A stretch of DNA of 64,000 bases from Euryarchaeota archaeon (GTDB lineage: Archaea > Thermoplasmatota > SW-10-69-26 > JACQPN01). This document shows positions 5,265 through 37,464 of this stretch, one piece after another. How positions within the stretch are numbered: the first letter of the stretch is position 1; each line of letters starts with the position of its first letter. The notes under the pieces were generated by a model that saw only the letters and a list, made by a program, of their open reading frames with translations, made no database searches and had not been told where the DNA came from. The stretch is from the NCBI GenBank assembly GCA_016207515.1, contig JACQPN010000025.1, positions 124,001 to 188,000 on the forward strand, written 5' to 3'. The position numbers were made by a program, and so were the translations under genes.

Positions 5265-6311
5265 TCAAGCGTGGTAAGCGTACGTGCTCCCGAACGTCAA
5301 CGTCGTCCCAAAGGCCGACGACGGCTGCGTGCGACTGAACCAGAGGTCCACTTTCCCGGCCCGGTGCGCGTGAGGGCAACCGCCCAAATGGGATCCTTGG
5401 CTGTCATGCGAGTTCCCGTCGTCCGACGCCGTCGAGGTGCAGGCAAGTAGCGACGGCATGTTGGAGATCTTGTTTACCGGCGGGGAACCGAATCCCGGGC
5501 TGCCGCGTATGTCGATGAGCATCGCGAAATTGTATGTCCTCGTATTGCCCCCTTCCCCGGCCGGATTGTGATCGGTGCCACCCGTCGGGCACGAGGGGAT
5601 GCTCGGGACGTCGCCCGGCGCGCACCCGTTCACGTACGTGTTGTCGCTGCCGTTCGGCATGCCCTTTGCGACGTTCAGCGTGGACGCCGTCGTGGTCCCG
5701 CGGTTGGTCGTCCCGCCGGCGAGGTTTCCCACCGAATCGGTCACGGTCGAGCCGATGGTCGTTACCCAGAAGTACCAGCCGCGCCCCCAATATTCGCGCG
5801 TCTCCCATGCGACGCCATTGGGGTCCGTGAAATGGTACTTGAAGGTGTTGAACGAGGATGGGAAGAGGTCGCCCGGATCCGGGCCTCCTTCCTCAATCGC
5901 CACCATGTAACAGTCCTGCGACGCGCAGGGCTCCTCCTCGATGCAAGGCCCGGTGCTGAAGGCCAGGAGCGCCGCATCGATGAAGAACTGGTCGTTGAAC
6001 CACGAGACGTTGTTGTGCCCGTCAAACGTGTCCGGGCAATGATGCAGTATCTCCCGCGCGTAACCCGCGACGGCCGAGAAATTATGTTCGTCGACGAAGG
6101 TAGCGTTGAAGTCGCTCTCCTTCACGATGACGCGGTATGTGGTGTGATCCTCGATGACGTTCCCACCGCAAAGCTGCGGATCGTAGAGGATCGGGCATTG
6201 CGTCTCGGTGAAGAAGTTCACCGGCCGCTCGCGCGTGAAGAACTCGGACGCCGAGACGGCCCCGACCGGGATGAAGAGCAATGCGACAAGCAAGGCTGAA
6301 GTGCGGCTCAC
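5265..6311 (-). CDS. Secreted protein, paralogue 1 of a three-member unknown family
   Basis: A 348-residue protein with a Sec signal peptide (about residues 1-21). Its family blocks are HTTYRVIV (56-63), NFSAVAGYAR (77-86), WFNDQFFIDAA (104-114), FTDPNGVAWETREY (161-174), TDHNPAG (246-252), YNFAMLIDI (260-268), DDGNSH (297-302), GCPHAHRAG (311-319) and VDLWFS (321-326). The same blocks occur in the protein at 7606-8589 and more weakly in the one at 9785-10627. Several Cys and a C-terminal His cluster suggest disulfides and perhaps metal binding. Start: GTG at 6311 with GGAGG 7 bases before it. It lies 43 bases after the regulator at 6355-6864, likely in one operon. I do not recognise the family. 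Confidence 0.85.
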   Translation of the reverse strand: MSRTSALLVALLFIPVGAVSASEFFTRERPVNFFTETQCPILYDPQLCGGNVIEDHTTYRVIVKESDFNATFVDEHNFSAVAGYAREILHHCPDTFDGHNNVSWFNDQFFIDAALLAFSTGPCIEEEPCASQDCYMVAIEEGGPDPGDLFPSSFNTFKYHFTDPNGVAWETREYWGRGWYFWVTTIGSTVTDSVGNLAGGTTNRGTTTASTLNVAKGMPNGSDNTYVNGCAPGDVPSIPSCPTGGTDHNPAGEGGNTRTYNFAMLIDIRGSPGFGSPPVNKISNMPSLLACTSTASDDGNSHDSQGSHLGGCPHAHRAGKVDLWFSRTQPSSAFGTTLTFGSTYAYHA

Positions 6312-7605: not shown

Positions 7606-8589
7606 TTACACGTGGTAGGCGCCCGTGCTGGCGTAGTTGCGGACCAATCCAGCGCCCGCGGGTCCCGCCGTGTGGGAAAACCACAAGTCGACGGCTCCGG
7701 TGCGGTGGCTGTGGCTGCAGCCGTTCGGGTGAGCGCCCTGGCTCGCGTGGGAGTTCCCATCGTCCGAGGCCGGGACTATGCAACCGAGCGGGGTGCTCGC
7801 GTTCGTGATCTTGTCCTCAACAGCGCTGCCGGGACCGGCAACACTGCCGTGGATGTCGATGAGGACCACGAAGTTGTACGCTCGCACGTTCGGGCCAGCG
7901 CCGACCGGGTTGTGGTCAGTGCCGCCGCCGTCAGCGTCGGGGTCGGAGGCGCAAAGGCCATCGCCGGCCGAGCAACCGTTCACGGAGCTGCCGTCGCTGT
8001 CCCCGAGGTTCGGGACGGGCGCCGGGGCCGTGCCGACGTTCGACGTCGCGGGCGGGTTGGCGGCGTTGTTGGCCGCTGCGTCCTGCGTCGTCGCGCCGAT
8101 GGCGACTTCCCAGTAATAGCCTTCCGCGCATGAGAATTCACGGGTGGTCCACGCGACCACGTTGGGGTCCGTGTAACCGTAGGTGAACGTCACGCCGCAA
8201 AGGGTCATGAGGTCGGGGTCGATGTTCCCGGTCTCGGCCGCCTTGACGAAGCAACCGATGGTGCAGTCCTCGTTGACGACCACGACACAGGCGATGCTGT
8301 TCGCGGCGTCAATGAAGAACTGGTCGTTGAACCAGAGAACGCCGTTGTTCTGCGTCTGGGTACACGTCACAGTCCTGTCCAGGTGACGGGCAAATCCCGC
8401 GACCGCGGAGAAGTTGTGGCTCTCCGTGACGGTGTTGTTCGCTTCTCTTTCCCTAACGACGACCGCGTATGTCGTGTGGCCCTCGATGACCGTTCGCGGG
8501 GAAGTCCTGAACTCCGACGCGAAGGCTGTCGCGGGTACCACGAGCATCGCAGCAATCGCCAATATTGCTACAATCGTTTTTGCCTTCAT
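7606..8589 (-). CDS. Secreted protein, paralogue 2 of a three-member unknown family
   Basis: A 327-residue protein with a clear signal peptide (residues 1-24, ending AFA). It shares ordered blocks with paralogue 1: GHTTYAVVV (37-45), NFSAVAGFAR (59-68), WFNDQFFIDAA (86-96), YTDPNVVAWTTREF (139-152), TDHNPVG (224-230), YNFVVLIDI (238-246), DDGNSH (276-281), GCSHSHRTG (290-298) and VDLWFS (300-305). Both end in a short YxYH/AYHV-type tail. At least eight Cys occur in the mature part. A near-perfect GGAGGTGA site precedes the ATG at 8589, which suggests strong translation. It stands alone between two terminator-like hairpins. Function unknown. Confidence 0.87.
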   Translation of the reverse strand: MKAKTIVAILAIAAMLVVPATAFASEFRTSPRTVIEGHTTYAVVVREREANNTVTESHNFSAVAGFARHLDRTVTCTQTQNNGVLWFNDQFFIDAANSIACVVVVNEDCTIGCFVKAAETGNIDPDLMTLCGVTFTYGYTDPNVVAWTTREFSCAEGYYWEVAIGATTQDAAANNAANPPATSNVGTAPAPVPNLGDSDGSSVNGCSAGDGLCASDPDADGGGTDHNPVGAGPNVRAYNFVVLIDIHGSVAGPGSAVEDKITNASTPLGCIVPASDDGNSHASQGAHPNGCSHSHRTGAVDLWFSHTAGPAGAGLVRNYASTGAYHV

Positions 8590-8875: not shown

Positions 8876-9721
8876 TCACTGCGCCACCTCCTTGTCCGAC
8901 GCGGGGGCCAAGATGTCGTCGATGCGACGGGCGAGCTCCTGCGACGCGTCCCAGTTTGCCTTGACCGTGGCCTTCATGTCGGCGACGATCGCCCTGTCGT
9001 CCGACCAGATCGCGACGTCCTCACCCTTGAAGAGATGCTCATCGTCGGGCACGTAGTGACAGATGAGGACCTCCGCATCGTCGACTATGAGGGTCGCGCT
9101 ACCCGGTGTCTTCTCCGCGTAGTGGCGCACGCTTCCGAAGTGCGAAAACTCGGTGAGGGTGTCGACGTTGACGTTCGACACAGGGCACAGGAAGCGCACG
9201 TCGACACTCCCTTCGGCCTTCTCCCGGAGGATCGGCATGTAGTAGCTCATCCGCAAGGCCGTGTACTCGCTTCCGAGTTCGAGGATCTCCGCCTTGGCGC
9301 GGGCGATCATCTCGTACTTGCGGTTGACGACGTTCTTCCTACCCTTGAGGACGTTGAAGCTCCCGGCCCGGTCGAGGCTCACGGGTGCTTGGTGGCTCAA
9401 CTGGGCCGAGATGAGTTTCTTGTCTTCCTCTATCTGGCGCAGTTTCGCCTTGTACTGGCGCTCGAAGGATCGGAGGTACTCGTCGAAGGGGACGACCTCG
9501 TACTTCTTCGGCCTCTCCGGGATAATCTCCGTGAGCTGCTTCTGATGGAGGTCGTCGAGTATACTGTATATCTTGGTGCGGGGCACCCGGCTGAGGTTCG
9601 CGATGTCCCTGGCGGTCGCCACCCCGAGGTCAAGTAGCGCCAGGTAGGTCCTGGCCTCGTACTCGCTGAGGCCATACTCCAGCATCTTGTCAAGTCTGTC
9701 TTTCGCGGTCGGATTCGTCAT
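8876..9721 (-). CDS. TrmB-family transcription regulator A
   Basis: A 281-residue protein. Residues 8-75 form a TrmB-type winged helix with ARTYLALLDLG, the recognition helix LSRVPRTKIYSILDDL and the wing IPERPKKYEVVPF. A coiled-coil linker (about 78-105) follows, then a C-terminal domain like the effector-binding part of TrmB proteins. TrmB regulators usually sense sugars, though many have other roles. It is a clear sister of the protein at 11113-11919. I chose ATG at 9721, preceded by AAGGTG and the spacer TTGCCGAA, which recurs in this block. The gene lies between two secreted paralogues, so control of them is the obvious hypothesis. Confidence 0.9.
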   Translation of the reverse strand: MTNPTAKDRLDKMLEYGLSEYEARTYLALLDLGVATARDIANLSRVPRTKIYSILDDLHQKQLTEIIPERPKKYEVVPFDEYLRSFERQYKAKLRQIEEDKKLISAQLSHQAPVSLDRAGSFNVLKGRKNVVNRKYEMIARAKAEILELGSEYTALRMSYYMPILREKAEGSVDVRFLCPVSNVNVDTLTEFSHFGSVRHYAEKTPGSATLIVDDAEVLICHYVPDDEHLFKGEDVAIWSDDRAIVADMKATVKANWDASQELARRIDDILAPASDKEVAQ

Positions 9722-9784
9722 TTTCGGCAACACCTTTTTTGATTCTTACTACGACTTTTTTGGCAAAGTTTGAATGGTAACTTC

Positions 9785-10627
9785 TTACCCGCCGCATTGC
9801 GGGCAGTCCTTCGTCTTGGGGGTCCCGCCGACCCAGAGGTCCACCTCGTAGACTTCGTGCGAGTGGTCCCCATCGGAGGCCTCGTGGCCTTCGTTCGTGT
9901 AGTAGGGTGGATCCACCGGGTAGGTAGAGTTCGGCCCCGTGCGGTTGTGGTTCACCGTGGCATCAGGGCCCGGGTGTGTCCAGCCGCCCGGGGCGGCGAG
10001 GTCCTGCTTAGTGAACTTGCATGTGTCCACAATCGTTACGAAATTGTAGTACACGTGGGGGTCGGAACCGGGGAAATTGTCGACGTCGGCTCCCTTGATC
10101 TCGACGACCCAAGTGTGGAAAATCGCCGTCTGACTTCGGGCCTTTGCGCCGGCGATTCCTGGCGTTGTGACCCCGGGATCGGTATCGACGAGCTCCTCGT
10201 CCCAGGTTTCGCTACTCGGTGACGGTGGCGTGATCGAATTCGAGGTTCCCTCGTACGTGTACTCCGTCACGTTCCAGTTCCTGCCGTTCGGGTCCGTGAA
10301 GTTGTAGAATACACCGGTCGCTTCGAGGACTGCATCCCTCGGGTCGCTCGCGTTCTTCTGCGTCGCGTAGAGCGTTCCGCCGGCTGCATCGAACTCGAGG
10401 AGCACCTGGTCGTTGAACCACATGATCTTGGTCCGCACGATCCCCGCTATCGCGCCTCTACATTGGTCGAAGCCCTCGACGTCGGTGAAGAGCGTGTGCC
10501 CGGTCATCGCTACATCTGACCAGTGGACACCGTGCCCGAGCGCCTGTGGGACGCTTAGGAGCGCTATCGCTCCGAGCATCAACAGTATCTTTCGGCGTTC
10601 GTTTGGCAACTTTTCACTCTCCAGCAT
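9785..10627 (-). CDS. Secreted protein, divergent paralogue 3
   Basis: A 280-residue protein with an N-terminal hydrophobic segment (about residues 14-31). It keeps parts of the family blocks: MWFNDQ (69-74), FTDPNGRNWNVTEY (110-123), YYNFVTIVD, SDGDHSH (about 254-260) and EVDLW. It lacks the NFSAVAG block and much of the Cys content, and ends in CPQCGG, a CxxC motif not seen in the other two. The mature start GHGVHW and the late HSH cluster make it His-rich. It lies downstream of two small ORFs and TrmB gene B on the same strand. The start at ATG 10627 has no strong ribosome-binding site. Confidence 0.8.
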   Translation of the reverse strand: MLESEKLPNERRKILLMLGAIALLSVPQALGHGVHWSDVAMTGHTLFTDVEGFDQCRGAIAGIVRTKIMWFNDQVLLEFDAAGGTLYATQKNASDPRDAVLEATGVFYNFTDPNGRNWNVTEYTYEGTSNSITPPSPSSETWDEELVDTDPGVTTPGIAGAKARSQTAIFHTWVVEIKGADVDNFPGSDPHVYYNFVTIVDTCKFTKQDLAAPGGWTHPGPDATVNHNRTGPNSTYPVDPPYYTNEGHEASDGDHSHEVYEVDLWVGGTPKTKDCPQCGG

Positions 10628-11112: not shown

Positions 11113-11919
11113 TCAGGCGCTCTGCGCCTGGAGTTCTCCGATAGCGGTCGGGACGGTCCTCGTTCCGTTCGCTTCGATGAGGTTCAATACGGCGGCGACA
11201 ATCGCCGCGTCATCGGTCACCACCCCGGTGTCCCCACCTTGGAAGTAGTGGGTGTCGTCGGGCGTCGAATGGGCGGTCAGGAGCTCCCGGCTGTCCCGGA
11301 TGACAATGAGTGCGCTTCCCGCCGACGAGCCGCGCCTGACTTCCGCGAAGCCTGCGAACTCGCGCTCCACGTCCTCGTGGATCTCGTCGGTCACGATCGT
11401 CACGCGCACGCCGGCCTCCGAGCGTTCCTTGAGTATGGGCGCGAAGTAGGCCATGCGCCTCGCTGCGTTCGCGGAGGCGAAGACGGTGAAGGACTCCTGG
11501 GCCGCAGCGCACATCGTCATCAGCTTCGAGGCGACGTTCCCGCGGCCTTTCACGACGACGAACGAACCGTCCTCTTCTTCCCGGTCGGCGTTTCGGGGCG
11601 CGAACTCCAAAGCGATCGCGGCCTTGTTGGTCTCTATCTCCTCGGCCTTCGTGCGGAAGGAGGATTCCAATCCGTCGAGGTAGTCGGAGAACGGGCAGAC
11701 GGCGTACTTCTTCGGGCGTTCGGGGATGACCTTGATGAGGTGCTTGGCTTCGAGGCCGTCGAGCGCTTGGTAGATCTTCGTGCGGGGCACTCGCGACAGG
11801 TCGGCGACCTTGCCGGCGTGGGCGATGTCGAGGTCGAGGAGGGCGAGGTAGGCTCTGGCCTCGTACTCGGTCAGCCCGAATTCCTGCATCCTGTTCAAGC
11901 GGTCGGCGTTTATCGTCAC
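11113..11919 (-). CDS. TrmB-family transcription regulator B
   Basis: A 268-residue paralogue of the regulator at 8876-9721. The winged helix (residues 6-72) shares LSRVPRTKIY, LDxLxxKxL and IPERPKKY with it almost exactly, while the C-terminal domain is more diverged. The near-identical recognition helix suggests that both bind similar DNA sites, while the different effector domains suggest different signals. It is the first gene of a leftward group with two small ORFs and secreted paralogue 3. Start: ATG at 11919, with a GGAGGAATCG-type site upstream. Confidence 0.9.
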   Translation of the reverse strand: MTINADRLNRMQEFGLTEYEARAYLALLDLDIAHAGKVADLSRVPRTKIYQALDGLEAKHLIKVIPERPKKYAVCPFSDYLDGLESSFRTKAEEIETNKAAIALEFAPRNADREEEDGSFVVVKGRGNVASKLMTMCAAAQESFTVFASANAARRMAYFAPILKERSEAGVRVTIVTDEIHEDVEREFAGFAEVRRGSSAGSALIVIRDSRELLTAHSTPDDTHYFQGGDTGVVTDDAAIVAAVLNLIEANGTRTVPTAIGELQAQSA

Positions 11920-21178: not shown

Positions 21179-21459
21179 CCGTTGAAGGTCCGAAAACTAA
21201 CAAACGCTTGAAACGACTACTCTGGACTTGCCAACGCAGAAGCGGATAACGTAAGCCAAGGAGCCTGCTCGGGAATCGTTCGCGGTTTCCTGACTCGTTT
21301 CGATGAACGCGTATCTTGCGCCATCATGCCAGAATCACGGGAACGCTCGGAGGGAAAACGCTCAAGCCTTATGAGATGTTTCAGCCAAAGTGAGACAGGT
21401 CAGGTCTTCCATTTCTGAACGATTCCCCCTCCCGCATGATGGAGGAAGGGGAATCAATA

Positions 21460-21780
21460 ATGGAGAACGGAAACAGGAAGAAATGGACGCCTCGGGCAAA
21501 ACTCGAGATCGTCCTCGAAGGCATGAAGAACGAGACCGGCATCGCCGACGTCTGCCGCAAGCACGGGGTCAGTACGACCACGTACCATCTTTGGCGGGAC
21601 CGGTTGTTCAAGAACGCTGGCAAGGTCTTCGAACACGCCAGTCGGGACAAGCCGGACCATGAGGTCGAAGAACTCCAAGCCGAACTCCAACGGCCGAAGA
21701 ACGTCATCGCGGAGATCACGAGCGAGAACCTGGAGTTTAAAAAAACTCCTGGGCGCTGGAAGACGGGCCGCGTGAGATAG
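21460..21780 (+). CDS. IS3-family transposase OrfA (helix-turn-helix)
   Basis: A 106-residue protein starting MENGNRKKWTPRAK. A helix-turn-helix of the IS3 OrfA type lies at about residues 10-55 (KLEIVLEGMKNE, IADVCRKHGVSTTTYHLWRD), followed by a coiled coil (EVEELQAELQRPKNVIAEI) used for multimerisation. It binds the IS ends. An A7 run at 21739-21745 near its 3' end is a natural slippery site: a -1 shift there continues as KNSWALEDGPREIERL straight into orfB. An ATG at 21436 is possible, but the chosen ATG has a purine-rich site upstream. Confidence 0.9.
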   Translation: MENGNRKKWTPRAKLEIVLEGMKNETGIADVCRKHGVSTTTYHLWRDRLFKNAGKVFEHASRDKPDHEVEELQAELQRPKNVIAEITSENLEFKKTPGRWKTGRVR

Positions 21781-21788
21781 AGCGACTC

Positions 21789-22799
21789 ATGCCCCTAATC
21801 GAGGAAACGATCCGGGACACGAGACGGCGCGTCCGATGGCCCACGCGGCTCATCCTCGCCCGACTCGGAGTCCCGAAGGCGTCGTACTACAGGTGGCGAA
21901 AGACGAGCCCGTTGGTACGAGAGGAGCGACCGCCTCAACCGTTCGAGATCCTCCCCGAGGAACGCGAGGCGGTCCTCTGCTACGGCCGAGAGCACCCGAA
22001 AATCCGCCACCGCGAACTCGCGTGGCGGATGGTGGACGAGGACGTCGCGTACGTCTCGAAAAGCATCGTCTACCGGATCTTGAACGAGGAAGGCCTCATC
22101 GCGGAGTGGCAACAGTACCGGCGAGAGAAGAGGTTATTCATCCGGGCGGAGGCGCCCGATGTGAAGTGGCAGTCGGACATCACGTACATCAAACTCGGTG
22201 GACGGAATTATTACCTCATCACGTTCATCGATGCGTACTCGCGGTACATCACGTACTGGGACCTCTTGACCAGGATGGACGGCGACTCGGTGAGCCTGGC
22301 CGCGGAGGCGGCCCTTGGCCGCCTCGCTGGCGGGAAGATGCCGATCATCCAGACCGACAATGGGAGCGGGTACATCAGTCGAGACTTCAAGATCGTCCTC
22401 AATCGGAGAGGCATCACGCATCACCGGATCAGGCCGCATACGCCGACGGACAACGCAATCGTCGAACGCGTCGAGAAGACAATCAAGGCCGAGCTCCAAA
22501 ATCATGAGCCGGAAACACCCGACGCTGCCCGACTCATCATCGAAGGGATCATCCGCTGGTACAACCACGAACGACTACACTCGTCAATCGACTTTCTCCC
22601 ACCGTGGGTTATGTACCGTGGTAATCCCCAAGAGGTCCTCGAACGGCGGCGAGTCAAACTCGCCGCCGCGCGTCACAGGCGAAGGGAACTCAACCTTCGT
22701 CGGCGCCAGTCACGCTTATATCTCGAACAGGGAATGACATTCACGCGGGAACCGGAATCGCAAAGAAACGAGGAGACCCGATTGTCTCACTCATGCTGA
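21789..22799 (+). CDS. IS3-family transposase OrfB (DDE integrase core)
   Basis: A 336-residue protein with the retroviral-type integrase core: D130 in WQSDITYI, D190 in QTDNGSG and E226 in NAIVERVEK (D-D-35-E spacing). The N-terminus holds an HTH_21-like segment (YYRWRKTS). It ends in an Arg-rich tail. The functional enzyme is probably the OrfAB fusion made by the -1 frameshift at the A7 run in orfA, since the orfB frame is open back through that point. All catalytic residues are present, so the element may be active. Confidence 0.93.
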   Translation: MPLIEETIRDTRRRVRWPTRLILARLGVPKASYYRWRKTSPLVREERPPQPFEILPEEREAVLCYGREHPKIRHRELAWRMVDEDVAYVSKSIVYRILNEEGLIAEWQQYRREKRLFIRAEAPDVKWQSDITYIKLGGRNYYLITFIDAYSRYITYWDLLTRMDGDSVSLAAEAALGRLAGGKMPIIQTDNGSGYISRDFKIVLNRRGITHHRIRPHTPTDNAIVERVEKTIKAELQNHEPETPDAARLIIEGIIRWYNHERLHSSIDFLPPWVMYRGNPQEVLERRRVKLAAARHRRRELNLRRRQSRLYLEQGMTFTREPESQRNEETRLSHSC

Positions 22800-22829: not shown

Positions 22830-24251
22830 GTGACTAATCATCCAAACATAGATAGCACGCACCGCGCGTTGCGGCGTTCCGTGGGCGCATCCGTCGGTGT
22901 TGGCATCGTCGTCCTCGACGCAGAGGGATGCGTCTTGCTCGCGAGCAACGAGGTCCCAAGCCTTCTTGGCCTCGCGATACTCAACCCCGGAATGCCGCTG
23001 ACTCAAGCGGCTTCGCATCTCCCGGCGCAAGTCCGGAGTGCCATCGACGACGCCGTTCTTCGCGGCCGCGACGCCTCGCTGCGCGCCGTCCGCGCCCCCG
23101 CGCGCGGCCTACTCGATTGGGAGATCGTCGCGCGCACCGATCCGAAGACAAACCGCGTCATTGAGGTCGTGATCACGCTCGCGGAGTCGCCTGCCCGAGG
23201 GGAGCTCTCGTATCAGGCATTCATCCACAGCACGGATGCAATCCTGATCACGAATCGAGCCGGCGTCATCGTCGATGTCAACCCCGCGTTCGAACGGATC
23301 TACGAATTCGCGCGGGAGGATTGCGTGGGCAAGACGCCCCGCATCGTCAAGAGTCCCACGACGCCTCGCGCCATTTACATTCGCATGTGGCGCGACATCC
23401 TCGACCCGGCCATCGGTCGATGGTCGGGGGAGCTGACGAATGTCGACAAGGCCGGAAATGAACACCGTGTTCTGTTGAACATCGACGCGGTCCGGGACGA
23501 GACTGGCACCATCACGCACTTCATGGGCGTCGCGACCGACGTGAGCACGCGTCGCGCCTTGGAGCGGCGTGCGGCGCACGCAGAGAAGCTCGCCGCGCTG
23601 GGAAGCCTCGCGGCCGGCGTCGCGCACGAACTCAACACGCCGCTCGCGAACATCCTACTCCTGGCCGAGAACCTGCGCCGGCGTACGACCGACCCCGAGG
23701 CGCACGTCCGACTCGAGACGCTCATGGCCCAAACCGAGGCGGCCTCGCGGATCGTGGGGAGCCTCCTCGACTTCTCACGCCAACACGAGATACAATTCCG
23801 CGAGCTCGACCTCGTGCCGCTCGTGCGCGACGCGCTGGCGTTCGTGCGCGGGAAGAGCCCGCCCGGCGTCGTCATCCGCGAGGTGCGTGAAGAGGGGACG
23901 TTCCTTGTCCTCGGGGATCGCGACCAACTCACTCAGATCGTCGTCAATATCGTCCATAACGCGATTTACGCGATCGGTGGCAATGGCGTCGTCACTGTTC
24001 GCGTGGGCGGCGACGAGAACCATGCGATCCTCGCCATCGCTGACACGGGGCCTGGCATCCCGCCCGACGTGCTGCCGCGCATCTTCGAGCCGTTCTTCAC
24101 CACCAAACCCGAGGGAAAAGGGACCGGCCTCGGTCTTGCAATCTGCTATGGCATCGTCCAATCGCACGGCGGCGTGATAGAAGCGACGTCGCTTCCTGGA
24201 TCGGGCGCGACGTTCACAATCAGGCTCCCCCGCGCGGAGGTGTCCGCGTGA
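22830..24251 (+). CDS. PAS-domain sensor histidine kinase
   Basis: A 473-residue soluble kinase. A degenerate PAS-like domain is at about residues 15-120 and a clear PAS/PAC at 125-245 ([20 protein letters not shown]). The HisKA domain has the phospho-acceptor His266 in [10 protein letters not shown]. The ATPase domain shows an N box ([14 protein letters not shown]), [24 protein letters not shown] and a final G box. There is no membrane helix, so the signal is probably cytoplasmic. The start is GTG at 22830, 28 bases after the IS element. It overlaps the response-regulator gene by 4 bases, so they form one unit. Confidence 0.95.
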
Positions 24252-25294
24252 AACTGCGGATACTTATCGTCGATGACGACGCGGTCTTCCGTGCCGAGTT
24301 CTCCGACGCACTCAAGGCGGAGGGTCACGACGTTTCCGCGGCACCCGATGTCGCCGACGGGGTCGCCGCCCTCCAAAAGCGGCCCTTCGACGTCGTGTTC
24401 ACGGACCTCCGCATGCCGCGCAAGGGCGGGCTCGATCTCATTCGCCAAGTCAAACGGCGCTGGCCGTCAGTCCTCATCATGGTCGTCACGGGCTTCGCCG
24501 CCATCGACACAGCCGTAGAAGCGATGCGGCTGGGAGCGTTCGACTACGTCCAGAAGCCGTTCCGCATCGACGCCGTCCGCAAGTCACTCGCGCTCGTCGA
24601 ACAGGAGATCGCGTTCGAGCAGCTTTCGCTCGTCGACCATGACCCCGTGGCCCTTGCGGCGGAGATCGCCCGCCGCGAAGACATCGACGTGCTTCTTGTC
24701 TCGCCGGAGCTGCCCACGCCGCTTCCGCCGCGCGTCCAGCACACACCTCTTGAACCCATGCAGCCGTACAAGATCAAGGAAGCCTTCGTCCGCTTCGCCG
24801 AGGGAAAGCCGCGGGCAGGGCTCGTCGTCGGGAACATGGATCGCGTGCTGGCCGTCCACCCTGTGAGCGACTGCGTGGAAATCCTTCGAAGGCTCCGCGA
24901 CGAGGCGCACGGCCGGGGCCCCATCGCGATCGGATTCAACCCGGCGGCCTTGCGACGCGACGCCATCGCGGCGCTACGCGCGGCACTCGCCGCCCCCGAA
25001 CTTCACGGCCTTGTCGAAGCCATCGGCTCGCCCATCCGCCGACGCGTACTCCGTCGTCTCGAAGCGGGGCAAGCATCCTTCACACAGCTTCTCGAGGCGA
25101 GCGGTATCACTGAATCGCCCAAGCTGTCGTTCCATATCCGTCGCCTCGTCGACGTCGGCTTGTTGGGCCAAGCGGGGGCGGACTACCGGCTTACACCCAA
25201 AGGCGCGCAGGCAGTGGGTGTGCTTCATCGCCTGGAAGAGGCCGCGACGCGCGAGCCGTTCTCGTTCATGCTGTTCGGGTCGAACACCGGATGA
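24248..25294 (+). CDS. Response regulator: receiver, DUF835-like middle and winged helix
   Basis: A 348-residue protein. The receiver domain (1-120) has the acidic pair at D9-D11, phospho-acceptor D53 in FTDLRMP and K103 in YVQKPF. The middle part (about 140-255; DVLLVSPELP, GLVVGNMDRVL, RRLRDEAHGRGPIAIGF) resembles DUF835-type archaeal signalling domains. The C-terminus (about 260-335) is an ArsR-like winged helix with SPIRRRVLRRLEAG, SPKLSFHIRRL and YRLTPKGAQA. The layout joins phosphorelay input to DNA binding in one protein, which is unusual for archaea. Its last 70 bases overlap the convergent phoU-like gene. Confidence 0.85.
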   Translation: MKLRILIVDDDAVFRAEFSDALKAEGHDVSAAPDVADGVAALQKRPFDVVFTDLRMPRKGGLDLIRQVKRRWPSVLIMVVTGFAAIDTAVEAMRLGAFDYVQKPFRIDAVRKSLALVEQEIAFEQLSLVDHDPVALAAEIARREDIDVLLVSPELPTPLPPRVQHTPLEPMQPYKIKEAFVRFAEGKPRAGLVVGNMDRVLAVHPVSDCVEILRRLRDEAHGRGPIAIGFNPAALRRDAIAALRAALAAPELHGLVEAIGSPIRRRVLRRLEAGQASFTQLLEASGITESPKLSFHIRRLVDVGLLGQAGADYRLTPKGAQAVGVLHRLEEAATREPFSFMLFGSNTG

Positions 25295-26513: not shown

Positions 26514-28076
26514 ATGTTTAGCCTCCAGAAGACGCACTTCGCAATCGCCGTCGCCGGCATCCTCTTGGGCGCCGTCGCGGCCTACGGCTATGTCAGAGTG
26601 ACTACAGAGGACGAGATAGTGGCCGCCCCGTCCGCGGCAACGGGAGCATCGTCGGGAAGCGGGACCACCTTTCGCACGATGAGCGTTTCCAAGCTCCCGA
26701 CCGAAACGGTCCCTGCGGGGAACGTGCAGAGTCGTCTGGCGACGCCCCCCACTGGATGGGACACGTCCTTCGCCGTCCGTCTCGACGTCAAGCTGCTTGG
26801 CCAATATGACTCCCGCGGTCCCGCCGCGTGGGACGCGGCCAAGCACCCGCTCGTGTACGTCACGACGAACGGCGCGGGCTACGCCGGGTTCTTCTCTGGC
26901 CTCGACCTCCCCGGCATCGCCATCATCGACGCAGACACGTACGAGGTAATCCTCGAGAAGCAGTTCAAGCTTGACGGCGTGGAACCCAAGAAGCACTTCG
27001 AGGACCACGGCGTGGGCGTCTCGCCCGACGGCAAGTGGATCTACCTCCCAACGGCCGACATGAACAAGACCGTCTCGGAACGCGGGCGTCTCCTCATCAT
27101 CGACGCGAAGACGCTGAAGGTCGACAAGGTGATCCAGCCCGCCGGGAACCCCCACCACATCAAGACAGTCGATTACTACGACGGGAAGGCGGTCAAGAAC
27201 CTCGTCCTCGTCGAGATATTCAACTGGAACAACCCGGGCGGCGGGCCGGGTTCCGGCATCTTCGTTCTGGACCCGATGGACGACAACCGCGTCGCCGGCG
27301 GGTTCCGCAGCGAAGACGTCCAAGCTAACCCGTATCTCGCGTTCCCCCACCCAGATGGCCGCCACCTCTTTGTGGGTCTGCCTCCGGGCCCGATCGGCGA
27401 CCCTGACATCAAACACCACGCCGAGGGATGGGTGGCCGTGATTGACATGACGACCTGGAAGCCCGTTGACTTCTACATGGCGGGCTTCGACCCCATCTGG
27501 ACGGCATTTACTGCCGATGGGCAGTTCGCCTACGTCACGGACGGCGGCTCCGACGAGATCTTCAAGATCGACAATGTGGAGCAGAGGGAGGTCGGCACGA
27601 GCCGTTCCTCCGTCCACGGCGCCTACGGCGGCCACCTCAACTGGGACGAGACGAAGCTCTTCACCGTCGAGAAGGGCGAAGCCTCCCACAACCGTGGCAA
27701 GACGCTGGGTGAAGTGGACGTCGTGGGCATGAAGCCGGTGGACAACCACGAGATGCACTGCCTCCGCGGCGATCACGGCCTCATCCACCCAGACCCTGCG
27801 AGGAACGAGCTGTGGATCAGTTACAACAGCAACTTCCGAGATGTCGTCTTCGACATGGAAAAACTCGAGATCAAGACGACGATCAACCACACAGGAAGCT
27901 CGCACAACGGCGCATTCGTCAAGTACGCAGTCGTCCTGGACGGCTCGTGGACCGGCGAAGTCCTCTCCGACCAGTCCGGACTCCACGGCTCCGCACGCGT
28001 GCTGAAGGAAGACATGCTCGGCGTGAAGGAGATCGTCTACGGGGCGACGACGACCCCGGTGACGGTCTTCCGGTGA
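26514..28076 (+). CDS. Secreted beta-propeller with His-lined core, nitrous-oxide-reductase-like
   Basis: A 520-residue protein with an N-terminal signal/anchor (8-27), a Ser/Ala-rich linker and a propeller of about seven blades (WD/YVTN style: VSPDGKWIYLP, TADGQFAYVTD, VIDMTTWKPVD). His residues recur at the inner strand of successive blades: H165 (EDHGVG), H214-H215 (NPHHIK), H279 (FPHPDG), H374 (GGHLNWD), H421 and H425 (DHGLIHPD) and H464 (SSHNGAF). Seven-blade propellers with such His spokes hold the CuZ cluster in NosZ. The next gene encodes a CuA-like cupredoxin, which in NosZ is the C-terminal domain of the same chain. Start: ATG with GGAG five bases before. A split NosZ-like enzyme is the best reading; a lactonase-like or other copper protein is the alternative. 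Confidence 0.72.
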   Translation: MFSLQKTHFAIAVAGILLGAVAAYGYVRVTTEDEIVAAPSAATGASSGSGTTFRTMSVSKLPTETVPAGNVQSRLATPPTGWDTSFAVRLDVKLLGQYDSRGPAAWDAAKHPLVYVTTNGAGYAGFFSGLDLPGIAIIDADTYEVILEKQFKLDGVEPKKHFEDHGVGVSPDGKWIYLPTADMNKTVSERGRLLIIDAKTLKVDKVIQPAGNPHHIKTVDYYDGKAVKNLVLVEIFNWNNPGGGPGSGIFVLDPMDDNRVAGGFRSEDVQANPYLAFPHPDGRHLFVGLPPGPIGDPDIKHHAEGWVAVIDMTTWKPVDFYMAGFDPIWTAFTADGQFAYVTDGGSDEIFKIDNVEQREVGTSRSSVHGAYGGHLNWDETKLFTVEKGEASHNRGKTLGEVDVVGMKPVDNHEMHCLRGDHGLIHPDPARNELWISYNSNFRDVVFDMEKLEIKTTINHTGSSHNGAFVKYAVVLDGSWTGEVLSDQSGLHGSARVLKEDMLGVKEIVYGATTTPVTVFR

Positions 28077-28089
28077 AGGTGCGATCGCC

Positions 28090-28542
28090 ATGACCAAGAC
28101 AGCGAGCTTCCGGAACTTCGGGTTCGTCATCGCTCTTGGCGCCGCAGCCTTGGCGCTCGCGGGGTGCGTCAATAACGACCCGGCGGAAAGCCAGAGCGTG
28201 GTACCATCATCGGGCATGGCATCGTCCTCGTCCACCGATGGCGTAAAACGGTTTGACGTTAACATCACCGAAAAGGGATTCAGGGTGCACGATGGGAAAG
28301 AGCTTCGAGTCAAGCAGGGCGACAACGTCAGTATCGTGTTCCACCACGCGGAACCCTTCGGCGACGATCACCCGATCTACTTCACATGCACGGACCGTGC
28401 CGCGACCGTGACCGCGACAAGCGGGACGGCCACGATGGCTTTCGTCGCGAAGAAGGCGGGCACCTGCGCCTTCTTCTGCACGAACGGAGATTGCGGGCCC
28501 CACAAGAACCTCCAAGATGGAAAACTCATCGTGGAGGCATAG
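28090..28542 (+). CDS. Cupredoxin lipoprotein with CuA-like site
   Basis: A 150-residue protein with a lipoprotein signal (LALAGC, lipid-anchored Cys26) and a Ser-rich linker. The cupredoxin domain spans about 53-150. Candidate copper ligands are H94 (GDDHPIYF), C126 and C130 (CAFFC), C135 and H138 (DCGPH). The order His...CxxxC...His near the C-terminus, then a KLIVE strand, matches the CuA domain of NosZ and cytochrome oxidase subunit II. The usual Met after the last His appears as Leu141 and there is a short insertion with an extra Cys, so a modified site or a plastocyanin-like CxPH site is also possible. It lies 13 bases after the propeller gene, in one operon. Confidence 0.78.
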   Translation: MTKTASFRNFGFVIALGAAALALAGCVNNDPAESQSVVPSSGMASSSSTDGVKRFDVNITEKGFRVHDGKELRVKQGDNVSIVFHHAEPFGDDHPIYFTCTDRAATVTATSGTATMAFVAKKAGTCAFFCTNGDCGPHKNLQDGKLIVEA

Positions 28543-28545
28543 GTC

Positions 28546-29238
28546 ATGGCGCCTCGCGGCCTTGTCGTTGCTGTAGGATCCGGGTTGGGCATCTCGCTCC
28601 TCGCGTTCGCCGCCGTGTTGGCAATTGTCGACGTTTGGGGGGAATCTGTTCAGACGCCGCAGGCGGCAGCAACCGCAACACCCCAGGCACTGCCCTTCAC
28701 GGCGGTCCCGCTCGACGACGATTCCGCATGGACGACCAAAGAGAACGAATCCGGCGCCGCGAGGCTCGTCATCCGCCAATTCGGGACGGAGCTTGGCTAC
28801 GTTCGCATGGGCACGTCGACCTCCATCTGTGCGGAGGTCGTCGACGCGCACGGCGCACCCGTAGAAGGCGCACACGTCGCGTTCGTCGCCCACGGACAAG
28901 CCGCGATCGAGCCCACGAACGCCCTGACGAACGACGTGGGGTCTGCTTGTGCAAGCCTCACGCCACACGCAGGAGGGTCGCTCCATGTGCAAGCGATCGC
29001 CACGAAGGACGGATACGAGCCTGCGAGCGCGGGCAAAGTCTCCGAAGTCGTGGATGCCTCCGAGACAACGCCAGGGCCTGCGGGCGCGAACCTCACGGTC
29101 CCCGCGGTTTTCGCGGGAGTCGCGGGACTCGTGCTCCTCCTCGGCGCAGCGCTTCTTACGCGCGGGGGGGTGGCCCGAAGGCGCTTAACCGAAGAGATAC
29201 CCAGCATGCGTCCCTCAAGTTCTTTACGGAGGTCTTGA
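28546..29238 (+). CDS. Membrane-anchored Ig-like protein of the propeller operon
   Basis: A 230-residue protein with a membrane helix near each end (about residues 7-27 and 185-205) and an extracellular Ig-like domain between them (about 75-165). That domain has the pattern CAEVVDAHGAPVEGAHVAFV and TNDVGSACASLTPHAGG, typical of bacterial Ig-like (invasin/Big-1 style) modules. It starts 4 bases after the cupredoxin stop, so it is part of the operon, and may scaffold the two copper proteins at the membrane. That role is inference. Confidence 0.75.
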   Translation: MAPRGLVVAVGSGLGISLLAFAAVLAIVDVWGESVQTPQAAATATPQALPFTAVPLDDDSAWTTKENESGAARLVIRQFGTELGYVRMGTSTSICAEVVDAHGAPVEGAHVAFVAHGQAAIEPTNALTNDVGSACASLTPHAGGSLHVQAIATKDGYEPASAGKVSEVVDASETTPGPAGANLTVPAVFAGVAGLVLLLGAALLTRGGVARRRLTEEIPSMRPSSSLRRS

Positions 29239-35550: not shown

Positions 35551-37464
35551 TCACGCCTCGACCTCCTTGTATGCTTCGGCCCCTATGACCAATTCTTCAT
35601 CGATGCCCTTCACGTAGAGCTCCGTCTCGTCGAAGTCGTCGGCATCGACCTCCTGCAACTCGAACGCGAAATCGCGCGATTCGCCCGTCGGTATCCGCTT
35701 CACTTCCCAGAGGACCAGGCCGTCACGGAGCTCGGCCGCCTTCGGCTCGACGTCCGCCAGTTTCGCCCCGTGCGGCACGACGGAGATCAGCGAGAACGTC
35801 TTCCCGTGGTGCGTGTAGTTGGTGAGCGTTAGCTTCACACGCGTCGTCCTCTTCGCCTTGTCGTGGAGTATCGAATCGGTGATCATCATGTTGTTCATGA
35901 TCTTCGCGACGACCCCCTCGATGTCCGGGACGGGCTTGCCGACGATCTTCGCCGATTTCGCAGCGATCATGGGGAGGATCTTCCGTATCAACTCCATCTT
36001 CGCCTTGAGGTAATCGTACTTCTTGCGTTTGCTGATGTGGCTCTTCATGCGGCGGGCGCATTCGCGTAGCGCCAACTGCACCTCGTTCTTCATCACCTCG
36101 ATGTCGGCGACCGCCTCCTTCGCTTCCGACGTGAACGGCACGTTGGTGGACGCGACGTGGACCAAGATCACGGCCGGGCCGAACGGGATGCCCTTCCCGC
36201 CACGCTGGTCGAGGTCATACCTACGCCAATCGATCTCCTCCACGGCGTGCGTCACGGCGCAACCGCCCTTGTTGTACATGAGCGGCACGCGGTTGGCGAA
36301 GCGGAAGATGCGGACCTGTTCCTCGCCGTTGAGCTTGCCGCCGTAGGCGATGCCGGCCTCCACCTGGAAAGGATTCCCGGAGTAGACGGCCGCCGGCCTC
36401 GTCGCCGTCACGAAGAACTCGGCCTCCGTGATCTCCTTCTTAAGCCCCTTCTTCACCAGGAGTTCCCCGATGGGCGAGAGGCAATCCGTGGGCGGCGCCA
36501 TCACCTTGACTTTCCTGAAAGCGTCGACGAGCCGCTTGGCGTCGTCGAGTTCGAGTGACTTCGGTTTCGCGTTCTCCTCGAGTTTCGCCGCCTCGATGAT
36601 GTCGCGGGCCGTGCGGTATCCGACACGGCTGAATTCCGTCGTGAGAAAAGAAGTGAGTTTGTTGGTCTCCGTGGCCTTCAACATCTTGAGGAGTGTCCCG
36701 AGCTCTATCCCCTCCGGATGCGGCTTGATCTCCGCCGTCGGCGCGGGAAGCTGGTCCGTTGCGCGCTCGAATATCACGGTCTCGCCGTCCGGTTCCTTGA
36801 AAGTGATCTTAGCATGCGGGTTGACGATCGCCGTCGAGCGTAGGTACTCGTAGACGGATTGCGCGCCGCGTTGGTACTTGGCCTCGAGGTGTACTGCGAT
36901 ACTCGTCCCGTGGGGCTTGTCCCAACGGACCTGGTCCTCTTTGAGGACCTCCGCACGGTTTTTTTGCGTGTCGAGGCGGATCTCGAGCCTGTACGCGGGG
37001 TAATCGGGGCCGATCTTGCTCGTCACGACCGCGTGTTTACCCGTGGTGAGATTCGCATACATCACGACCGCGGAGATCCCTATCCCCTGTTGGCCCCGCG
37101 ATTGCCGTATCTGGTGGAAGCGCGACCCGTAAAGGAGGCGCCCGAAGACATTCGGGATCTGCGCCTTGACGATACCCGGTCCATTGTCCTCGACTGTGAG
37201 GATCAACTCATCCGTCCCGCCCTTCGATATCGCGACGTTGACCTCGGGAAGGATGGAGGCTTCCTCACAGGCGTCAAGGGCATTGTCGACCGCTTCCTTG
37301 ACGGCCGTGATGAGCGAGCGCGTCGACGAATCGAAGCCGAGGACGTGCTTGTTGCGTTCGAAGAACTCCGCGACGCTGATGTCCTTCTGTTTCTTCGCAA
37401 GTTCCGTGGCGATCGGCGCCGATGTAATGGAAGTCGTAGACGTCCCTCCGGGGGCTTTTCCCAT
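35551..37464 (-). CDS. top6B: DNA topoisomerase VI subunit B
   Basis: A 637-residue ATPase subunit. The GHKL Bergerat fold shows [10 protein letters not shown] (57-66, Mg-binding Asn61) and VEDNGPGI (91-98), with the ATP-lid region [17 protein letters not shown]. An H2TH-like insert and a transducer domain follow, and an Ig-like C-terminal extension is present, as in euryarchaeal Top6B. The TATA box at 37491-37498 lies about 30 bases before the ATG at 37464, so the transcript is probably leaderless and covers top6A too. Confidence 0.97.

Follow-up and report, generated by a model that had tools for sequence, protein, structure and literature searches.

To our knowledge, propellers that contain more than one copper occur in only few enzymes, whose small-molecule substrates matter for climate or industry. 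In the nitrous-oxide reductases NosZ of clades I and II (models TIGR04244 and TIGR04246), one gene encodes a secreted propeller and a CuA cupredoxin, and the CuZ center has seven His residues, i.e. an adjacent HH pair and five further ones. A lactonase-type nitrous-oxide reductase, L-NosZ, forms clade III (He et al. 2025, doi 10.1038/s41586-025-09401-4, as cited in PMC13122619); its profile covers a YVTN/lactonase-type propeller and a C-terminal cupredoxin, again in one chain. In thiocyanate dehydrogenase, which is secreted as well, the propeller houses three coppers in its central tunnel and cytochrome c is the acceptor (PMC9456337), and these coppers are held by His residues including an HH pair, with His135, 136, 206, 381, 437, 482 and 528 in the sequence (PMC6504805). 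Cytochrome cd1 nitrite reductase has an electron-transfer domain fused to its propeller, and CoxB is the CuA subunit of the haem-copper oxidases.

The operon studied here (26514-29238) lies in a DNA stretch of 64,000 nt, referred to as the window, from a Euryarchaeota archaeon whose genome has 2.67 Mb and is 98% complete. Like NosZ and L-NosZ it encodes a secreted propeller and a CuA-like cupredoxin, but as two separate genes, followed by a third gene (Table 1). The three genes are on the forward strand, separated by 13 and 3 nt, and the Shine-Dalgarno-like sequences GGAGATC, GGTG..GATC and GGAGG precede genes 1, 2 and 3, respectively. An earlier note on this DNA had described a three-gene operon with a lipid-anchored cupredoxin and a two-anchor Ig-like protein; the open reading frames, the LAGC lipobox and the two hydrophobic ends with a Big_1 domain confirm this description, and every residue named in that note is present under its number.

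A gene for a PhoU/AbrB-type protein lies upstream of the operon on the opposite strand; a PRC-barrel gene and, at a distance of 1.4 kb, a gene for a CcmF/NrfE-type haem lyase lie downstream. We also observed an IS3-type two-frame transposase (21436-22799, +) ~3.7 kb upstream of the operon, a possible sign of a mobile neighbourhood, and between the two the gene of a histidine kinase, which overlaps that of a response regulator whose output domain is an archaeal HTH (22830-25294, +). Elsewhere the window encodes topoisomerase VI B (35551-37464), a sign of its archaeal origin, and, on the reverse strand, three secreted paralogues with a common His-rich ending of the C.HxHRxGxVDLWFS type (5265-6311, 7606-8589 and 9785-10627), which alternate with TrmB-like regulators (8876-9733 and 11113-11919). 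An Rfam tRNA match of 54 bits on the reverse strand (1356-1476) takes 121 nt for a 71-position model and was missed by ARAGORN; it is probably an intron-containing gene.

Table 1. Features of the archaeal operon and of the bacterial locus. Positions refer to the window unless a locus is named; residue numbers are those of the respective protein.
Feature	Position	Strand	Basis
Gene 1: 520-aa beta-propeller, secreted or N-terminally anchored, about eight repeat units, multi-His	26514..28076	+	open reading frame, YVTN-type repeat match, repeats, bacterial homologue
H165 codon (DHGVGVSPDGK), conserved	27006..27008	+	aligns to H256 of the L204 homologue
H214-H215 codons (NPHHIK), conserved His pair	27153..27158	+	align to H307-H308 of the L204 homologue
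H421 codon (GDHGLI), conserved	27774..27776	+	aligns to H510 of the L204 homologue
H464 codon (SSHNGAF), conserved	27903..27905	+	aligns to H553 of the L204 homologue
H491 codon (SDQSGLHG), conserved	27984..27986	+	aligns to H576 of the L204 homologue, DQ-x-x-HG
Gene 2: 150-aa lipoprotein cupredoxin, CuA-related	28090..28542	+	LAGC lipobox; weak Cupredoxin_1; NosZ profile matches
H94 codon, candidate N-terminal CuA-type His ligand	28369..28371	+	matches NosZ CuA His region, hmmsearch alignment
CuA-length metal loop C130-TNGD-C135-GP-H138-KN-L141	28477..28512	+	aligned with CTNFCSALHQEM, CTWFCSALHLEM (NosZ) and CTEYCGTGHAFM (CoxB)
Gene 3: 230-aa protein, hydrophobic anchors at N- and C-terminus, Big_1 Ig-like domain	28546..29238	+	PF02369, E 5.5e-9; hydropathy
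Bacterial homologue gene, 589 aa: signal peptide, cytochrome c domain, then propeller	L204 805-2574 (genome G851)		
Pieces of the G851 cluster	L205 16483-19061; L204 805-2574; L206 1642-14718		

By sequence, the propeller protein is not recognizable as NosZ, L-NosZ, thiocyanate dehydrogenase or cytochrome d1. In Pfam it matches no more than a WD40-like repeat below threshold, and among the NCBIfam models it has weak matches, to L-NosZ and to generic propellers. Searches of the PDB with the single sequence and with a profile of the two propellers returned, at E up to 10, generic propellers only and no chain of NosZ or thiocyanate dehydrogenase. Its only hydrophobic segment is N-terminal. The protein carries a Sec-type export signal and no Tat signal, unlike thiocyanate dehydrogenase, which uses Tat. 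AlphaFold runs without relatives gave a pLDDT of 35.8 for propeller residues 79-520 and 44.9 for the cupredoxin, too low for a trustworthy model, so we infer the convergence of the His residues at the propeller axis.

A homologue of the propeller was found in only one other genome. None is present in 390 genomes of the host phylum, where the remaining matches are isolated YVTN repeats. One bacterial phylum, reached via a Massilia locus and presumably Pseudomonadota as judged from the centre genome, has a single homologue in 359 genomes (G851:C1:290080-291138, E 3.7e-24), with 31% identity to the window propeller over residues 137-500; with the protein at locus L204, BLAST aligns residues 121-492 of the window propeller at 27% identity and E 5e-26. 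The N-terminal domain of this bacterial protein has the motif AMCSACHGED and matches the NCBIfam cytochrome c models, with Pfam Cytochrom_C below threshold (E 0.005). Its gene has no cupredoxin neighbour in G851. Upstream of it lie two genes, one for a DsbD-type membrane protein and one for a YncE-like propeller exported via Tat, and downstream a phosphate/phosphite/phosphonate-type (PhnD-type) transporter followed by C-P lyase genes (PhnM, PhnJ and others). An exact-peptide scan of 84,980 species, plasmid searches with the window genes, and a search of viral contigs with the alignment of the two propellers gave no match. The bacterial homologue matched one plasmid protein, a YncE-type propeller with 24% identity.

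The two propellers share part of their His residues. In this two-sequence comparison the homologue has 11 aligned His, and 7 of these fall on a His of the window propeller (hypergeometric P 5.5e-8, or P 0.02 against the mean identity), more than expected by chance for this part of the His set. The seven are the six listed in Table 1, of which H491 stands at the extreme end of the alignment, and H284, which is in a turn. H279, H368, H374 and H425 are not kept, and two of them, H279 (PHPDG) and H425 (HPDP), sit in A-B turns away from the inner-strand entry. According to a repeat alignment with unit boundaries set by hand, H165, H214/215, H421 and H464 are at blade entries, H491 is near the C-terminus, and about five of the eight repeat units have a His at the entry. 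The earlier note had placed a His at the inner strand of almost every blade, which is too strong for these data. From its list H165, H214, H215, H421 and H464 are conserved while H279, H374 and H425 are not, and H491 was absent from it. The same note had named homologues that lack the His and never co-occur with the cupredoxin as evidence against its reading; the sole homologue keeps the six His but has a cytochrome c in place of the cupredoxin, and so agrees with that reading on one point and departs from it on the other.

The lipoprotein encoded by gene 2 is related to CuA domains. Its best profile is that of the NosZ CuA (TIGR04246, NosZ residues 57-142, E 1.9e-4). A comparison with 10 NosZ proteins gives an hhalign probability of 89% for their CuA end and, with hmmsearch, 19.6 bits to the NosZ CuA, the NosZ-profile alignment spanning the whole cupredoxin. 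This kinship goes beyond chance. The metal loop has the same 12-residue span as those of NosZ and of the CoxB encoded in the host genome (C25:311057-312439), which has an intact CuA; the common form with CoxB is CTxx..CG..H..(M/L). H138 at +8 and L141 at +11 from C130 are where CTNFCSALHQEM and the CoxB loop CTEYCGTGHAFM have their His and Met. In contrast, C135, the second Cys, follows C130 at +5 where CuA has +4, giving C-x4-C-x2-H-x2-L versus C-x3-C-x3-H-x2-M in the NosZ CuA, and the cupredoxin differs from CoxB also in being a lone-domain lipoprotein. Since FFC130-TN aligns on the YYC-TN/TW of NosZ, the first Cys of the CuA site is C130. The CuA kinship and the change of the CuA Met to Leu described in the earlier note stand, and the candidate ligands H94, C130 and H138 are in place, but the Cys pair is C130/C135 and not C126/C130. 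C126 lies four residues ahead of the loop; it probably faces the barrel interior, and C100 may be its partner. Judged by alignment, the site may be a dinuclear CuA variant, or the shifted Cys and the Leu may give a mononuclear type 1 site or another kind of site, or may impair copper binding.

A DNA pattern for this variant loop in the form G-x3-[FY]-x-C-[ST]-[NDEK]-G-x-C-G-x-H gave 10 matches in 84,980 species, all due to chance by translation, and hence the loop was found nowhere else in this collection. The cupredoxins of the neighbours G002 and G004 are ordinary type 1 proteins.

The earlier note had read the operon as a split nitrous-oxide reductase, i.e. a highly diverged CuZ-like propeller with a separate CuA lipoprotein that reduces N2O to N2. 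The part that stands is a redox propeller with an electron carrier, since the bacterial homologue has an electron-transfer domain of its own; membership in the N2O reductases is distinctly unlikely in our opinion. The CuA kinship of the cupredoxin and the NosZ-like HH pair with single His in further blades argue for it, as does H165, which aligns within the NosZ motif PHGVxVSPDGKY. Beyond this one repeat motif, however, sequence kinship between the propeller and NosZ is undetectable: the hhalign score against the 10-NosZ profile is 33.1, no better than that of shuffled sequences (20 copies with an average of 18.6 and a best of 40.1), and a circular permutation of NosZ, made to fit the His order, brought no gain. 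At a cut-off of 625 bits for TIGR04244 and TIGR04246, the cupredoxin reaches 12.5 and 19.9 bits and the propeller has no match. On the L-NosZ model NF052460 (cut-off 700) both window proteins touch the profile weakly and in the same order with 11-20 bits (19.7 and 17.6). On this model ordinary YVTN propellers in the host phylum score 30-76 bits, real cupredoxins as much as 58 and canonical NosZ proteins 72-184, and the window proteins are thus below background. Searches for true L-NosZ sequences for a comparison of ligands returned only canonical NosZ and generic propellers. In addition, the altered Cys spacing and the lost Met of the CuA loop, and a bacterial relative that has cytochrome c and adjoins a phosphonate locus, speak against N2O reduction. 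So does the genome, which has no NosL, only a single COX1-family protein with no second homologue of the nitric oxide reductase type, and no denitrification context in view; in all but about 9 kb of its 2.67 Mb, NosR has no convincing match and NosD, NosF and NosY have only generic weak ones. As a separate observation, a 453-aa YncE/lactonase-type propeller without a cupredoxin domain in genome G739 (L203 1027-2388, +) has His at six blade entries (SHG, AHG, SHI, THG, NHL and SHE), matches NosZ with an hhalign probability of 94% and scores 132 bits on the L-NosZ model.

The propeller could also be a multi-copper oxidase or dehydrogenase for a small S, N or P compound that passes electrons via the cupredoxin, or via cytochrome c in bacteria, to the terminal oxidase. 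We regard this as possible though rather improbable in that specific form. Thiocyanate dehydrogenase (PDB 5F75) provides the precedent, a three-copper His propeller with an HH pair that donates to cytochrome c and, like the window propeller, a secreted single chain with many His; the cytochrome c domain of the bacterial homologue and the haem-copper oxidase encoded in the archaeal genome fit as well. Against it, the thiocyanate dehydrogenase chains in the PDB were not matched, the His spacing is different, and the Tat signal is missing. Six His do not prove that the metal is copper, as there are also propellers that bind iron with four His and propellers that bind haem. A mononuclear iron propeller or a non-catalytic metal-binding one, for instance a sensor or a metal carrier, with the cupredoxin merely co-located, is unlikely; multi-His propellers do bind single metals and the bacterial homologue has a weak RPE65-type match (E 0.009, under the cut-off), but the fusion to cytochrome c points to redox work and the operon includes a CuA-derived carrier. 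Least probable, and very unlikely indeed, is a cd1-like or other tetrapyrrole-binding propeller in which the cupredoxin stands in for the c domain. The layout of the bacterial protein, cytochrome c plus an eight-unit propeller, resembles that of cytochrome cd1. The host phylum moreover has a 600-aa lipoprotein (L015 169-1971, reverse strand, genome G278) with the intact CuA motif CSVFCGDLHNDM ahead of a cytochrome d1 propeller; it appears to be an enzyme akin to nitrite reductases in which CuA takes the place of cytochrome c. Yet that protein matches PF02239 (Cytochrom_D1) with E 2.8e-45, whereas neither the window propeller nor its homologue matches this family at all. L015 was also considered as a fused homologue of the operon and rejected, being a CuA-d1 protein; what it and cytochrome cd1 share with the operon and the bacterial protein is an electron-transfer domain that goes with a propeller.

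Our best explanation, which we hold to be about evenly balanced, is that the operon encodes an extracytoplasmic oxidoreductase made of a metal-binding, probably copper-binding, propeller and a CuA-derived electron carrier. The oxidase or dehydrogenase for S, N or P compounds is a special case of it. The His residues H165, H214, H215, H421, H464 and H491 of neighbouring blades would bind a metal center in the central channel of the propeller, most likely with two or more copper ions. The membrane-tethered cupredoxin would shuttle electrons between this center and the respiratory chain, gene 3 would probably provide an anchor or scaffold, and in the bacterial relative the fused cytochrome c domain would do the job of the cupredoxin. 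A redox enzyme with a His-held metal center is the simplest account of conserved His with a swapped carrier across two domains of life. The CuA-derived partner favours copper, and so does the precedent of NosZ and thiocyanate dehydrogenase, whose propellers bind copper through several His. The lipobox, the operon spacing, the single COX1, the CoxB with its intact CuA and the nearby gene for a CcmF-type haem lyase also fit our explanation. As the bacterial relative has no cupredoxin neighbour, the pairing of propeller and cupredoxin is seen in this one operon, and the two proteins may work together. The archaeon encodes, besides its haem-copper oxidase, a multihaem cytochrome c with 13 CxxCH motifs in a 914-aa frame (C9:21588-24329), and electrons could hence flow either way. 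By analogy, small inorganic molecules such as N2O, thiocyanate or other N, S or P compounds would be the natural candidate substrates.

On the whole, the operon does not amount to a proven split nitrous-oxide reductase but seems to encode a redox enzyme of a rare kind that has no name yet. We tentatively speculate that copper propeller oxidoreductases of this kind might form a family of their own, apart from NosZ, L-NosZ and thiocyanate dehydrogenase, with few members dispersed over one archaeal and one bacterial phylum. Its six-His propeller would work with unrelated carriers, a separate CuA-derived lipoprotein in the archaeon and, in the bacterium, a cytochrome c domain fused to it. If this is true, a further six-His family with an interchangeable carrier would offer a direct test of the origins and capabilities of such copper centers. 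Even without copper, the swap between a cytochrome c in bacteria and a CuA-derived lipoprotein in archaea would be a clean case of modular electron transfer.
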